A stretch of DNA of 64,000 nt, from NCBI GenBank assembly GCA_905235305.1, contig CAJOLC010000019.1, positions 24,583 to 88,582 on the forward strand, in the 5' to 3' direction. The position numbers and the translations under genes were made by a program. Shown here one piece after another: positions 36,311 to 41,809 of the stretch. The stretch's first letter is position 1. Every line of letters begins with the position of its first letter. This DNA is from an uncultured Bacteroidaceae bacterium (GTDB lineage: Bacteria; Bacteroidota; Bacteroidia; Bacteroidales; Bacteroidaceae). The notes below the pieces were generated by a model that was not told the DNA's origin, searched no databases, and saw only the letters and a list, made by a program, of their open reading frames with translations.

Positions 36311-37669
36311 TTAAGAGTTGATAGAGGCTACGATGTCTTCCGGGCGGGTGAGTTTCTGCTCGCCGCTTATCATATTCTTGAGCATCACCATTCCCGCCTG
36401 CATTTCCGTCTCGCCGGTCATGATGACGAAAGGTATGCCTTTCTGATTGGCATACTGCATCTGCTTCTTCATCTTGCTGGCATCGGGATAGATTTCGCAG
36501 CGAATGCCTTGCCTTCGGAGCTGTGAGATGATGGGGAGCGAATAGTCGGTCTCCTTCTCGCCAAAGTTGATGAAGAGCACTTGGGTTGCTGTCGTGACAG
36601 CTTCCGGGTAGAGGTTCAGCTGGTTGAGAACGTCGTAGATGCGATCTGCACCAAAGCTAATCCCTACTCCACTCAGTCCAGGCATGCCGAAGATGCCTGT
36701 CAGGTTGTCGTAGCGACCGCCTCCCGTGATGCTTCCTATCTCGACATCCAGGGCTTTCACCTCGAAGATGCAGCCCGTATAATAGTTGAGCCCGCGGGCA
36801 AGCGTCAGGTCGAGTTCGAGTTGAGAGTTTTGAGTTGAGAGTTTTGAGAGCACGTATTCCACCTCGTCTATGCCTTTCTGTCCCACCTCGCTGCCTGCCA
36901 GGGCCTGGCGCATCGTCTGTATCTTCTCTGCATTCGAGCCGCTGAGGTTGATGATGGGCTGCAGCTTCTGGATGGCTTCTTCGCTGATGCCGTCCTGGCG
37001 CAGCTCTTCGTTCACGGCGTCGAGCCCTATTTTGTCGAGCTTATCAATAGCCACCGTGATGTCGACTATCTTGTCGGCTTCGCCAATCATCTCGGCGATG
37101 CCGGAGAGAATCTTGCGGTTGTTAATCTTGATACAAACGCGGATTCCGAAGCGGCGGAACACTTCGTCGACGATTTGCATCAGTTCCACTTCGCAGAGCA
37201 GCGAGTCGCTTCCCACGACGTCGGCATCGCATTGATAGAACTCACGGTAGCGGCCTTTCTGCGGACGGTCGGCGCGCCATACGGGTTGAATCTGATAACG
37301 ACGGAAAGGCAAAGCCAGCTCCTCCCTGTGCTGCACGACATAGCGGGCGAAGGGGACTGTCAAATCGTATCTGAGACCCTTTTCGCAGAGCTGAGCAGCA
37401 AGGTGGCCCGTAGCGCCAGAGGCAAGGTCTTCGGCAGAGATGCCACGCAGGAAGTCTCCGCTGTTCAGTATCTTAAAGAGAAGTTTATCGCCCTCCTCGC
37501 CATACTTGCCCATCAGGGTCGACAGGTTCTCCATTGCAGGCGTCTCGATTTGTTCAAATCCGTAGAGCGAATAGACCTCGCGAATCGTGCCGAAGATGTA
37601 GTTGCGGCGCGCCATCTCCTGTGGTCCGAAGTCGCGGGTACCTTTGGGTATACTTGGTTTCTGTGCCAT
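36311..37669 (-). CDS. hisS: Histidyl-tRNA synthetase
   Basis: 452 residues with class II motifs: motif 2 [20 protein letters not shown], the histidine-A loop [22 protein letters not shown], and motif 3 [11 protein letters not shown]. Between VEYVLSKL and [10 protein letters not shown] the protein has STQNSQ, encoded by a 14-base tandem repeat (GAGTTGAGAGTTTT on the plus strand, 36821-36853) that looks like an in-frame insertion of intergenic-type sequence. The promoter is at 37702-37732. Confidence 0.96.
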
Positions 37670-37694
37670 GATCTGAATTACTAATAAGAGATTT

Positions 37695-37738
37695 GCGAAT
37701 GCAAAGGTACGAATAAGCGTGGGAAATACAAAGGGAAA
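37695..37738 (-). promoter_or_regulatory. Promoter cassette for hisS (inverted copy)
   Basis: On the minus strand the 44 bases are identical to the cassette at 38087-38130: TTTG (37729-37732), 19-base spacer, TACCTTTG (37702-37709). It is 33 bases before the hisS start. Confidence 0.9.
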
Positions 37739-37815
37739 GCAGAAGTTTTTCGCTATTTATCCGGGCGAAGCCCTGAGGCAAGTCGCCCAATTAGGTTAAG
37801 GGATTTGATAAAGTT

Positions 37816-38012
37816 AACGTGCCGGGTCGGGTGATTCAACGTGCCGAATTGGGTGATTCAACGTGCTGGGTCGGGTGATTCAACGTGCTGGGTCGGGTGA
37901 TTCAACGTGCTTCGTGTATTTTGGGCGCCCGCCAAAAATGTTCACGGCGCACGCCGAAAGAAACCGTAGCGCACGCCGAAAACAGTCACGGCGGCCGCTA
38001 CGAACCAAATTC
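37816..38012. repeat. Composite 22-bp-period array of two unit families
   Basis: First family: AACGTGC-type units (ACGTGCTGGGTCGGGTGATT) at 37816, 37838, 37860, 37882 and 37904. Second family: GCGCACGCCGAAA-type units at 37925, 37947, 37969 and a weaker one at 37991. Both have a 22-base period, and the second follows the first almost in phase (21 bases apart). The array lies between the two identical promoter cassettes of divergent genes. No gene is seen in 37670-38145. Confidence 0.85.
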
Positions 38013-38086
38013 CACATAGGAACGACATCCTTCGAAATATGTTACGGCAAACAAACTTCGCTCGGAAATATTAAGAAAACCCGTGA

Positions 38087-38130
38087 TTTCCCTTTGTATT
38101 TCCCACGCTTATTCGTACCTTTGCATTCGC
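38087..38130 (+). promoter_or_regulatory. Promoter cassette for the coiled-coil gene
   Basis: TTTG at 38093-38096, 19-base spacer, TACCTTTG at 38116-38123, 22 bases before ATG 38146. Identical over 44 bases to the hisS cassette on the other strand, and very close to the one at 11261. Confidence 0.9.
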
Positions 38131-38145
38131 TAAAGACTGTTAACC

Positions 38146-39168
38146 ATGCATTTCTTCAGGAAAAAAGATAAGGATGAGGGACAAAGGGCAGATGCCGGCA
38201 GCCAACAGATAGCCAAGGAGAGTCAGCCAAGTCAGCCCGTCGAAGGCGGCATAAACTTCATCATCGACGACGTCCCAACCATGCACCCCAGACGCGACAG
38301 CCGTATTCTAAACTCTACACAACTGCAACGCGTCAAGGATGCCAAGAAGCTGGCCGAGACAAAACTGGCAGGTCTGGAAGAGAACCTGGAACGCCTCAAG
38401 GCTCAACAACAATGGCTCAGACGCTATCAGGAGACTAGCATGGCCCTGGAGAGAGAGAAGAGGCACCTCTTTGAACTCAATAAGCAAAAGGCTGTGATGG
38501 CAAAGGAATCGAGCATGCTGGAACGCTACGACATGTTCGAAGGCATTCATGGCGTCTACCAGAAGCTCGCCGTGGTGAAAGAACAAATAGGCAGAGACAA
38601 GCGAGGACTGAGCCTGCTGGAACGGGAAGCCGACGGGAACAGGCAAAAGATGACAGAACAGGAGAAGAGACAAAGGCAGGCGGGGGAGCAATTCCAAAAC
38701 GCCACGACAAGTCTGCGGGACGTCGTCGACCACGTCTGCAGTGCCCAGGGACTGACGGGAAACAACGAAGCCCTTGAAGCCGAAATGGCCTTCCTGCTCG
38801 ACTATAATAATAAGGTAAAAGAGGAGACGAAGGCTCTTTCCTCCCTTATAGCAGAGAAAGAAAGGGGAACCGAAGCACTGCGAAGTGACCTGGAACGTCT
38901 CCGAAGCAAACGACAAAGCATGGAAATCCACGAAAACATGCTTTGCCATGGCGAGGCGGTCCTCTTGCAGCTCAGACATCTGGAAGACAGGGACAAGAGA
39001 CGCACCGAATTCCAACAGCGAAGCAGGCAAGCCATAAAACGTCAGGAAGAAGAGAACGAGCTGCTGAGCAAGACTTTCTCACAGTTCCAGGACCTCGTCT
39101 CCATGACAGAAACAGCAGAGGCCGAGCTGAGCATGCACCGCTCGTACATTCAGGGCAGGGACGGCTGA
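38146..39168 (+). CDS. Coiled-coil protein, N-terminal part of split SbcC-like hook
   Basis: 340 residues. A short basic, disordered start (MHFFRKKDKDEGQRADAGSQ) is followed by almost continuous coiled coil rich in Leu, Glu, Arg and Gln (for example LAETKLAGLEENLERLKAQ). No Walker A or other ATPase motif is found. The frame ends with TGA at 39166-39168, and the next frame starts in the overlapping ATG (TGATG). Adding one G in the GCAGGGAC stretch would fuse both into a roughly 910-residue protein, so this is either one frameshifted gene or two coupled genes. Confidence 0.75.
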   Translation: MHFFRKKDKDEGQRADAGSQQIAKESQPSQPVEGGINFIIDDVPTMHPRRDSRILNSTQLQRVKDAKKLAETKLAGLEENLERLKAQQQWLRRYQETSMALEREKRHLFELNKQKAVMAKESSMLERYDMFEGIHGVYQKLAVVKEQIGRDKRGLSLLEREADGNRQKMTEQEKRQRQAGEQFQNATTSLRDVVDHVCSAQGLTGNNEALEAEMAFLLDYNNKVKEETKALSSLIAEKERGTEALRSDLERLRSKRQSMEIHENMLCHGEAVLLQLRHLEDRDKRRTEFQQRSRQAIKRQEEENELLSKTFSQFQDLVSMTETAEAELSMHRSYIQGRDG

Positions 39169-40880
39169 TGCTTCAGGAAAGAGCCCTCATGCTGAAAGGC
39201 CGCAGGCAAATGCTGCTCTCAGCCCTCTCCCTCTGGAGACGCATCAGCACGGGCTACGAGAGTATCGAAGAGAAGAGTAAGAAGGTGACCCAGCTTCGGC
39301 TGCACATACAACACCTGGAAGATGGTGTCCACAACCTGGAAGAACAGGCAGGAAAAGCAGGAAGACTCTGCAAGGAAAAGGAATATACCTACCTTCTGAG
39401 CAAAGGTCAGGACATCATTCAGCTGCGTGCCGACCTCAAGGAAGGCGTCAGCTGCTCTGTTTGCGGCGCAACGCATCACCCCTATCACAGCGACACGATA
39501 CTCGACCAAAGCAAGCTCATAGGCGAAATGAAGACCGACTATGAGATGCTTGCCTCGGAAGCAAATGCAAAGGCTCAGCAGCTCGCGGAAGCACAAACCG
39601 AGCTGGCAACCGCATTGGGTCAGCTCAGCGCAGAAGAGGAAGCACTCAACACCATCCGAATCAGGCAGAACGAGGACACGTTGGAGTGGAAACTCTACTC
39701 CAGTCTCGACCCTACCTTTGCCGAATGCTCTGAGAGTACGAATCTCGACGCAAGGACTGCCTTGATTCGTCAATTCATCGAGAATGTCAGCCGAGATGCA
39801 GAACAGGCTGAGAAGGAACTCGAGACCTTCACCTTTCACCAAAGCAGCATCGCCAAAATCAGCGAGGAACTTCAGAAGCTCGAACAGAAGAAGAGTGAAG
39901 TGAATGTCCGCCTGAGCGAACTAAACACCGGCCTGCAAGTGCTGAGCCGCGAGGTGGAACAAATAGGCCAACGGCTCGAGAGCATCAATAAACAGTTCAC
40001 CCGTCTCTACGAAAACATGATGCAGGCAGTCACCATCAAGGACTGGTACACCATTTGGCAGAGGAATCCCGAGCAGCTCTACGAGCAGATACAAAAGCTC
40101 GTCACGGATTGGTTCTCCACAGAAAAGGACATCGCAGAGAAGCAAGCCATCCTCGACACAGAGAATGCAAACCTCGAAGGGATGAGACTATTGCTGCAAT
40201 CCCTCACGAGAACCATGGCTGTCACTCAAAAGCGTGCAGAAGTCGTGGAAGGACGAAAATCAGAGAATCTCAAGGCATACCAGCAATTGATTCCGGACAT
40301 GAATGCCAAGGGCCTGCATCAGAAACATCTTCAGATTGTGAGAGAAGCCGGGGAACGTCTCGAGAAAGAACGGGAGTCATTGGCTGGCATTCGCCATGAC
40401 AACGATATGATGCAGGGCCGGCACGACTATTATCTGGAACATATTGCAAGGTTGGAAGGCGAGCAGAAGGAACTCGGAGAGAGACTCGACCTGTGGATGC
40501 ATGCTTTCAACCTGCAACATCCGCCTGTCCAACTGAACGAGCTTGACGATGTCTTTGCTGACGGGAAGGATTGGAGCAAGATTCGGAACCACCTGAAACA
40601 GATGAACAAGGAAATGCTCTTGTGTCAGGCAAAGGTAGAAGACCTGAACAGCCGCCTCATTGCTCTCGACACGGAAGACGGGCGTTGCAGTATGTTGACG
40701 CCTGACATTCAGGAGAATATCGCTGCCAAACAGCAGACCCTGACCAAGCAAAGAAGTGAAACGATGATGTTGATTGCCCGTCTGTCGGTTCAGCTTGAAG
40801 ACCACGAACGTGCTCTCTCGGCAGAACGCAACTCCGCAGAAATGTCGGCACGCAACCTGCCTGAAATCAACCTGGCTTAA
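39168..40880 (+). CDS. Coiled-coil protein with zinc-hook motif, C-terminal part
   Basis: About 570 residues from ATG 39168. It is coiled coil again, interrupted near residue 100 by CSVCGATHHPYHSD, which matches the CxxC hook where SbcC/Rad50 coiled coils dimerise through zinc (typically CPxCG...HP). The C-terminal half is more coiled coil (for example QKHLQIVREAGERLEKERES). It ends without Walker B, signature or D-loop motifs, so this would be a hook and arm without the ATPase heads. No sbcD-like nuclease gene is adjacent. Confidence 0.75.
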   Translation: MLQERALMLKGRRQMLLSALSLWRRISTGYESIEEKSKKVTQLRLHIQHLEDGVHNLEEQAGKAGRLCKEKEYTYLLSKGQDIIQLRADLKEGVSCSVCGATHHPYHSDTILDQSKLIGEMKTDYEMLASEANAKAQQLAEAQTELATALGQLSAEEEALNTIRIRQNEDTLEWKLYSSLDPTFAECSESTNLDARTALIRQFIENVSRDAEQAEKELETFTFHQSSIAKISEELQKLEQKKSEVNVRLSELNTGLQVLSREVEQIGQRLESINKQFTRLYENMMQAVTIKDWYTIWQRNPEQLYEQIQKLVTDWFSTEKDIAEKQAILDTENANLEGMRLLLQSLTRTMAVTQKRAEVVEGRKSENLKAYQQLIPDMNAKGLHQKHLQIVREAGERLEKERESLAGIRHDNDMMQGRHDYYLEHIARLEGEQKELGERLDLWMHAFNLQHPPVQLNELDDVFADGKDWSKIRNHLKQMNKEMLLCQAKVEDLNSRLIALDTEDGRCSMLTPDIQENIAAKQQTLTKQRSETMMLIARLSVQLEDHERALSAERNSAEMSARNLPEINLA

Positions 40881-40990: not shown

Positions 40991-41809
40991 ATGAGACGTA
41001 CACTCACTCTCTTCATTGCTGCCAGCTTTGCCATCGGAAGTCAGGCGCAAGCGCTTTACAAGGGCACCAAGTACCACGCTCCAATCAAGGTGGAGAAGAA
41101 ATGGAAAGGATACAACCCGGGAGATGTTGAATTCCACGACGAATCTCCTTCCTCGGAAGGCTCTATGATATATCACAACATCATTCCCGAGCCTGCACCA
41201 TACATCCAGGAGAATGCTCTTCGGGTTCTTCAGACACTGTATTGGGGGCCTAAAGACAAGAATGTGCCTCGCTTGAAGCGCATTATCTACACGATTAAAG
41301 ACTATGACGGTATCAGCGAGAAGTATGGAAACGGCGACTATGTCGGCATTCGCTACAGCACAAAATGGATCGAGCGATGCTTCGCCGGCAATGATACCTT
41401 GCGACTTGACTATGAGACACGCGGGGTTCTCTATCACGAGCTTACCCATGCTTACCAGCTTTCTCCCGAAGGATGTGGGCAATACGATGGCAAGAGCGAG
41501 TACTGGCTCTTCATCGAGGGACTGGCCGACGCTGTTCGCGTGGCATGTGGATGTTTCGACCAGGACTTCAGCAGTAAGGACCGCACACGTGGCGACTCAT
41601 GGCGCAAGGGCTATCGTGTGACCGGTTATTTCCTCTACTGGCTGCAACTTAATAAGGACAAGGACTTCATCCGCAAGTTTAATCGCTCTGCAGTTGAGCT
41701 GAATCCCTGGTCGTGGGACAGGGCGATGAAGCACATTCTTGGCGACAAGCCAGAGAACACGACTGATGCCCTGTGGGATGAATACCAAAAAGCTGTCGGC
41801 GACAAATGA
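40991..41809 (+). CDS. Secreted basic secretory protein-family metallopeptidase
   Basis: 272 residues with a signal peptide ([20 protein letters not shown]). The peptidase-like core carries the zinc motif HELTHAYQ (HExxH) near residue 148 and the downstream region [14 protein letters not shown], as in the plant BSP family (PF04450) and its bacterial members. It probably degrades protein outside the inner membrane. Its stop overlaps the queC start (ATGA), a surprising pairing with a cytoplasmic tRNA-modification gene. Confidence 0.85.

Follow-up and report, generated by a model that had tools for sequence, protein, structure and literature searches.

A headless derivative of SbcC conserved in gut and rumen Bacteroidales

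What is a protein that has the zinc hook and long coiled-coil arms of SbcC/Rad50 and none of its ATPase? The question is raised by a locus of an uncultured Bacteroidaceae bacterium, of which a stretch of 64,000 nucleotides (hereafter the window) was analyzed. The initial annotation had described here a coiled coil of about 910 residues with a hook, encoded in two adjoining reading frames, and both the coiled coil and the hook CSVCGATHHPYH are indeed present. Neither ORF1 nor ORF2 matched any ATPase family in a Pfam scan. The locus contains the following features:

36311–37669, minus strand: hisS, the divergent neighbor of the headless gene in the genera coded g1 and g22, where it also adjoins the hookless copies
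37692–37749, minus strand: inverted-repeat copy of the headless-gene promoter, facing hisS; its partner arm is at 38076–38133
38093–38123, plus strand: promoter of the Bacteroidetes type, TTTG-N19-TACCTTTG, just 5' of the headless gene start
38146–38166, plus strand: N-terminal motif MHFFRKK, a candidate anchor or docking peptide preceding a disordered linker
38146–39168, plus strand: ORF1 (340 aa; TGA stop at 39166–39168), comprising the N-terminal motif, the linker and most of the ascending arm
39166–39170, plus strand: TGATG stop-start overlap of ORF1 and ORF2, interrupting what is a single frame in relatives
39168–40880, plus strand: ORF2 (570 aa; ATG start at 39168), comprising the rest of the ascending arm, the zinc hook and the descending arm, with no ATPase head after it
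39453–39488, plus strand: zinc hook CSVCGATHHPYH at the coiled-coil apex, in the ORF2 frame

The absence of heads is not a peculiarity of this copy. The gene was found in the genus of the window and in a sister genus, where intact homologues are about 855–940 aa long. No ATPase domain, AAA_23 included, was detected by Pfam in 19 intact homologues, and no Walker A, signature or Walker B motif was found in any headless copy examined. The description of a hook and arms without heads therefore holds for close homologues as well, and the possibility that the heads were lost here only through truncation fails, since the intact homologues are headless too. The other doubt raised earlier, that the CxxC might not be conserved, is dispelled by the alignment of 19 homologues, in which both hook cysteines are invariant. 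In the window genome (88% complete) we found neither SbcD (TIGR00619) nor an SbcC-type Walker B above the cut-off. Heads encoded elsewhere in this genome were also considered and rejected, the sole candidate being a sub-threshold Walker B match in a frame that, at 392 aa, has the size of RecF. A profile search of 393 genomes sampled across the order revealed no headless homologue outside the family; one 35-bit match corresponded to the hook of a 1058-aa frame.

The overlap between the two frames (39166–39170) is real in the given sequence, and it had been attributed either to a one-base assembly error or to translational coupling of two subunits. When the whole genus was searched, 128 of 139 genomes proved to have an ORF2 homologue, including 18 of the 18 high-quality ones. 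As counted from the search table, 119 of the 128 are single open frames of at least 843 aa; the remainder comprise the window genome, fragments at contig ends and five copies of 614–656 aa that lack the hook. The nearest relative, L031 (89% identity), has one uninterrupted frame of 908 aa over the split site, where the window sequence is one base shorter than the intact relatives. The initial annotation had suggested looking for intact or likewise split homologues: L031 and nearly all other relatives are unsplit across the site, and none is split at the same position. Coupled subunits would be compatible with the overlap itself and with the location of the split in a predicted break between helices (L031 residues 333–336), where two fragments could reassemble; against this, no relative shares the split, and when single bases were deleted at random from the intact gene, a TGATG-like stop-start overlap resulted at 367 of 2718 positions (13.5%). 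The overlap as such therefore does not speak for coupling or design. We regard the coupling of two subunits as extremely doubtful. The split is private to the window genome and is either an assembly error or a frameshift of recent date; it did not evolve as a two-subunit design. The dN/dS ratios against L031 are 0.088 for ORF1 and 0.057 for ORF2, with dS near saturation; as both halves are under purifying selection, the interruption, if real, is recent.

The origin of the gene became clear from the genera g12, g15 and g26 of the same family, which contain a frame of about 1250 aa that matches the headless-family profile and scores as the exonuclease subunit SbcC. In BLASTP with composition correction and masking, L031 matched the headed SbcC proteins from other genera along about 800 residues, with E values down to 3e-70; the coil aligns nearly free of gaps over about 850 columns. 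The aligned arms include features outside the heptad pattern, and the motifs LKEG..C.VCGATHHPYH, D.SF..CS and FN..H.P.Q..EL...F are common to both. These comparisons show a naturally decapitated SbcC: the whole antiparallel arm and the zinc hook are present and both ATPase half-domains are absent. The initial reading was correct as to the hook and arms without heads, and it missed the SbcC origin and the headed and pseudo-headed relatives in neighboring genera.

The headless protein descends from SbcC but cannot be counted among the SbcC/Rad50 enzymes, as defining features that were tested fail. With SbcC, the bacterial Rad50 of the SbcCD complex, it shares the CxxC zinc hook at the coil apex and full-length, homologous antiparallel arms. 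It differs from SbcC in that the N-terminal half with Walker A and the C-terminal half with the signature and Walker B are missing, in having an additional N-terminus that is disordered and carries a conserved peptide, and in lacking an adjacent SbcD; this SbcD/Mre11 partner is absent from the window genome and from most of the genus. SbcD was found in all 33 sampled genomes with the headed g12, g15 or g26 frame, and generally adjoins headed sbcC in the loci read.

Headed SbcC is widespread in bacteria, and the heads were therefore taken as ancestral. In a tree of the arms, the g1 and g22 headless proteins group together and share the hisS locus, while the headless g15 pair L085 and L091 is nested within active-headed g15 proteins (SH-aLRT 100). 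Forcing all headless proteins into one group was rejected (p-AU 4.8e-5). Heads were thus lost at least twice in this gut and rumen group of Bacteroidales. Among 27 headed SbcCs examined, 20 were scored as active and seven had degenerate heads. The metallophosphatase motifs of SbcD were altered in four of the seven genomes with degenerate heads, strongly in G216 and G149 and partly in G243 and G213; they were intact in G196 and G359. At four loci of g12 and g15 (L077, L078, L116 and L117), a degenerate SbcC lies beside an altered SbcD with both frames intact. Judging from their motifs, these apparently represent a retained, catalytically dead SbcCD.

Reduction went further in six proteins of 612–662 aa that are both headless and hookless (L082, L083, L139, L140 and L141 from g1; L086 from g15). 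They miss the apex and keep the base of both arms, and arose at least twice, in the five g1 genomes and in a single g15 genome. The g1 copies lie beside hisS like the hooked gene and are under purifying selection. The passage from active to degenerate heads, then to headless and hookless forms, looks like decay, and the window copy is itself interrupted; a decaying SbcC remnant with no function is nevertheless very improbable, being largely refuted already at the level of the family. Pairwise dN/dS is 0.04–0.10 in most headless and hookless pairs (L134/L142 is more relaxed, 0.29), the gene is near-universal in the genus, its hook is invariant and a promoter is present. The headless gene is thus shown to be conserved under purifying selection in the genus and its sister genus. 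The hook is the most conserved window of 25 residues, with an identity of 0.84 in the headless set versus 0.82 in active SbcC. For L031 residues 576–600 conservation is 0.65 in headless proteins versus 0.33 in active SbcC, which hints at a new constraint.

Could the headless protein act on a complete SbcC encoded elsewhere? SbcD was found above the cut-off in 13 of 139 genomes of the genus (SbcC Walker B in 12 of 139) and in seven of 17 sampled g22 genomes, and in none of them does it adjoin a headless gene; the few SbcCDs sit elsewhere. Of the SbcCs read at SbcD loci, two gave no match to the headless family and one a weak match, and by this criterion these SbcCDs look like separate, perhaps acquired, copies. 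Such findings would suit a regulatory or hetero-oligomeric partner that pairs, hook to hook, with another protein (for instance an SbcC gained by horizontal transfer) so as to modulate it. However, most headless genomes, including one that is 100% complete, have neither SbcD nor any SbcC head, so this cannot be a general role, and we consider it quite improbable. In two genomes we observed a second SbcC-like Walker B protein of 1140–1150 aa (86 bits; G120:C10:73475-73750 and G089:C20:42685-42960). Its match is far stronger than that of the resident type, which suggests a horizontally acquired SMC-like ATPase.

The AlphaFold2 model of L031 (mean pLDDT 78, pTM 0.31) consists of antiparallel helices with an apex at residues 430–442 and no globular head. 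Residues 1–46 are disordered, and helices extend with short breaks over residues 54–429 and 443–899. A PDB sequence search with the headless protein gave no match, the fold matches in PDB (MukB, condensin, JetC and Rad50) had TM-scores of 0.08–0.19 and are not diagnostic, and Pfam/NCBIfam coil matches to ATG16, XhlA and SMC_prok_B were below the cut-off and are typical of coiled coils.

At the N-terminus, 23 of 32 headless proteins have the motif M-x-[FLI]-F-x-[KR], versus one of 350 other ORFs. Even very divergent copies retain it, while the linker following it is variable. This enrichment and persistence, along with the disorder of the N-terminus in the model, as would be expected of an anchor, are in line with an envelope or membrane scaffold, in which the M-x-F-F-x-K/R peptide would insert in the membrane and the rod, joined by the hook, would space or link membrane sites, or connect them to the nucleoid. 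Nine of the 32 proteins lack the motif, including the two independently arisen headless proteins of g15 and some from the genus itself, and a membrane scaffold appears to us unlikely.

We favor, with moderate confidence, an ATP-independent tether or spacer that is dimerised by the zinc hook and held by the base of the coil, with DNA or the nucleoid as its likeliest target. By analogy with Rad50/SbcC, two chains would dimerise through the hook, giving a rod that would work without ATP and measure about 110 nm, taking 0.15 nm per residue and about 375 residues for each of the two arms. The base ends, free of heads and nuclease, would grip a partner through the conserved coil base; in most members the new N-terminal peptide on its flexible linker may hold the partner as well. 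The arms and hook would then be what still has a task in SbcC once end-processing is lost. The hook of Rad50 is known as a constitutive dimeriser that is interchangeable with the SMC hinge (PMC6969161), and an engineered headless SMC of Bacillus subtilis compacts DNA (PMC4725763), so that bridging or compaction could be imagined for the nucleoid; the membrane would be the next candidate. Against a tether, no partner gene points to a target. The headless protein is net acidic (128 K+R versus 154 D+E), which does not favor simple DNA binding by the arms, and the hookless lineages keep the base-proximal coil, which suggests that the essential contact may be made by the base and not by dimerisation at the hook. 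The hookless lineages and the acidic coil together argue against a simple hook-plus-DNA model.

To our knowledge, the plant protein DMS3 is the best natural precedent for a headless SMC-like protein. Acting in RNA-directed DNA methylation, it likewise combines a dimerising apex with a coiled coil devoid of an ABC ATPase head (PMC6718625). DMS3 differs in being eukaryotic, in having known partner proteins, in the length of its coil (about 50 versus about 375 residues) and in its apex, which is an SMC hinge instead of a zinc hook; no SMC hinge was detected by Pfam in 19 homologues of the headless protein, whose apex is a short CxxC loop. The B. subtilis construct (SMC residues 160–1037) likewise consists of an apex and arms only and compacts DNA (PMC4725763). 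It is laboratory-made and has an SMC hinge, whereas in the headless protein, a natural one, the apex is a zinc hook. The coiled coil of RloC bears a zinc hook. RloC lies outside the repair family (PMC2610378). RloC retains an ABC ATPase and a tRNase domain, neither of which was found in the headless protein. Membership in a defence system (Lamassu LmuB or Wadjet JetC) was rejected: PADLOC gave only weak coil matches, and the Lamassu and Wadjet ATPase heads and system partners are absent, the neighbors being hisS and subclade-variable genes.

We found no paper describing a headless SbcC in the open-access literature searched, and the variant is real, conserved and apparently undescribed. In Mre11-Rad50, a role of the arms and hook beyond service to the heads is hard to test, since mutants damage the enzyme. 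Here the heads and nuclease were removed by evolution on at least two occasions, and the arms, with the hook in all but two lineages, stayed under strong selection. That the arms and zinc clasp were selected after this loss suggests that the arms have a job of their own, and cultivable relatives allow an ATP-independent role of the arms to be tested directly. From active through dead to headless and hookless, the forms offer a rare view of an enzyme becoming a structural protein. It can tentatively be hypothesized that SbcC arms and hook have a second job, independent of ATP and nuclease, which in Bacteroidales lineages outlived end processing, and that SbcC there repeatedly became a stand-alone architectural tether via dead intermediates, perhaps gaining a new membrane or docking peptide. 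If true, nature would have provided the Rad50 family with a separation-of-function series.

The synteny with hisS looks like an inherited position rather than a functional linkage. Downstream genes vary by subclade: some have an AraC-type regulator, an M49 peptidase and a DNA-alkylation-repair-like gene, and others the gene at 40991–41809 and two small genes, which from their sequence we take to be queC and queF. Prediction of function from neighbors was therefore abandoned, hisS being merely positional and the downstream genes differing among subclades. What had looked like a "second coil gene" of 532 aa next to L084 is the antisense of hisS. The dedicated promoter noted earlier does exist just upstream of the gene (TTTG-N19-TACCTTTG), yet it duplicates the hisS promoter: the two lie in a 58-nt inverted repeat of 91% identity (arms 37692–37749 and 38076–38133) that provides hisS and the headless gene with identical promoters. 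A near-identical element is located 5' of the headless gene in L033 and is absent in most other relatives. Between both promoters of the window, at 37816–37925, there are four to five 22-nt direct repeats (AACGTGCYGGGTCGGGTGATTC).
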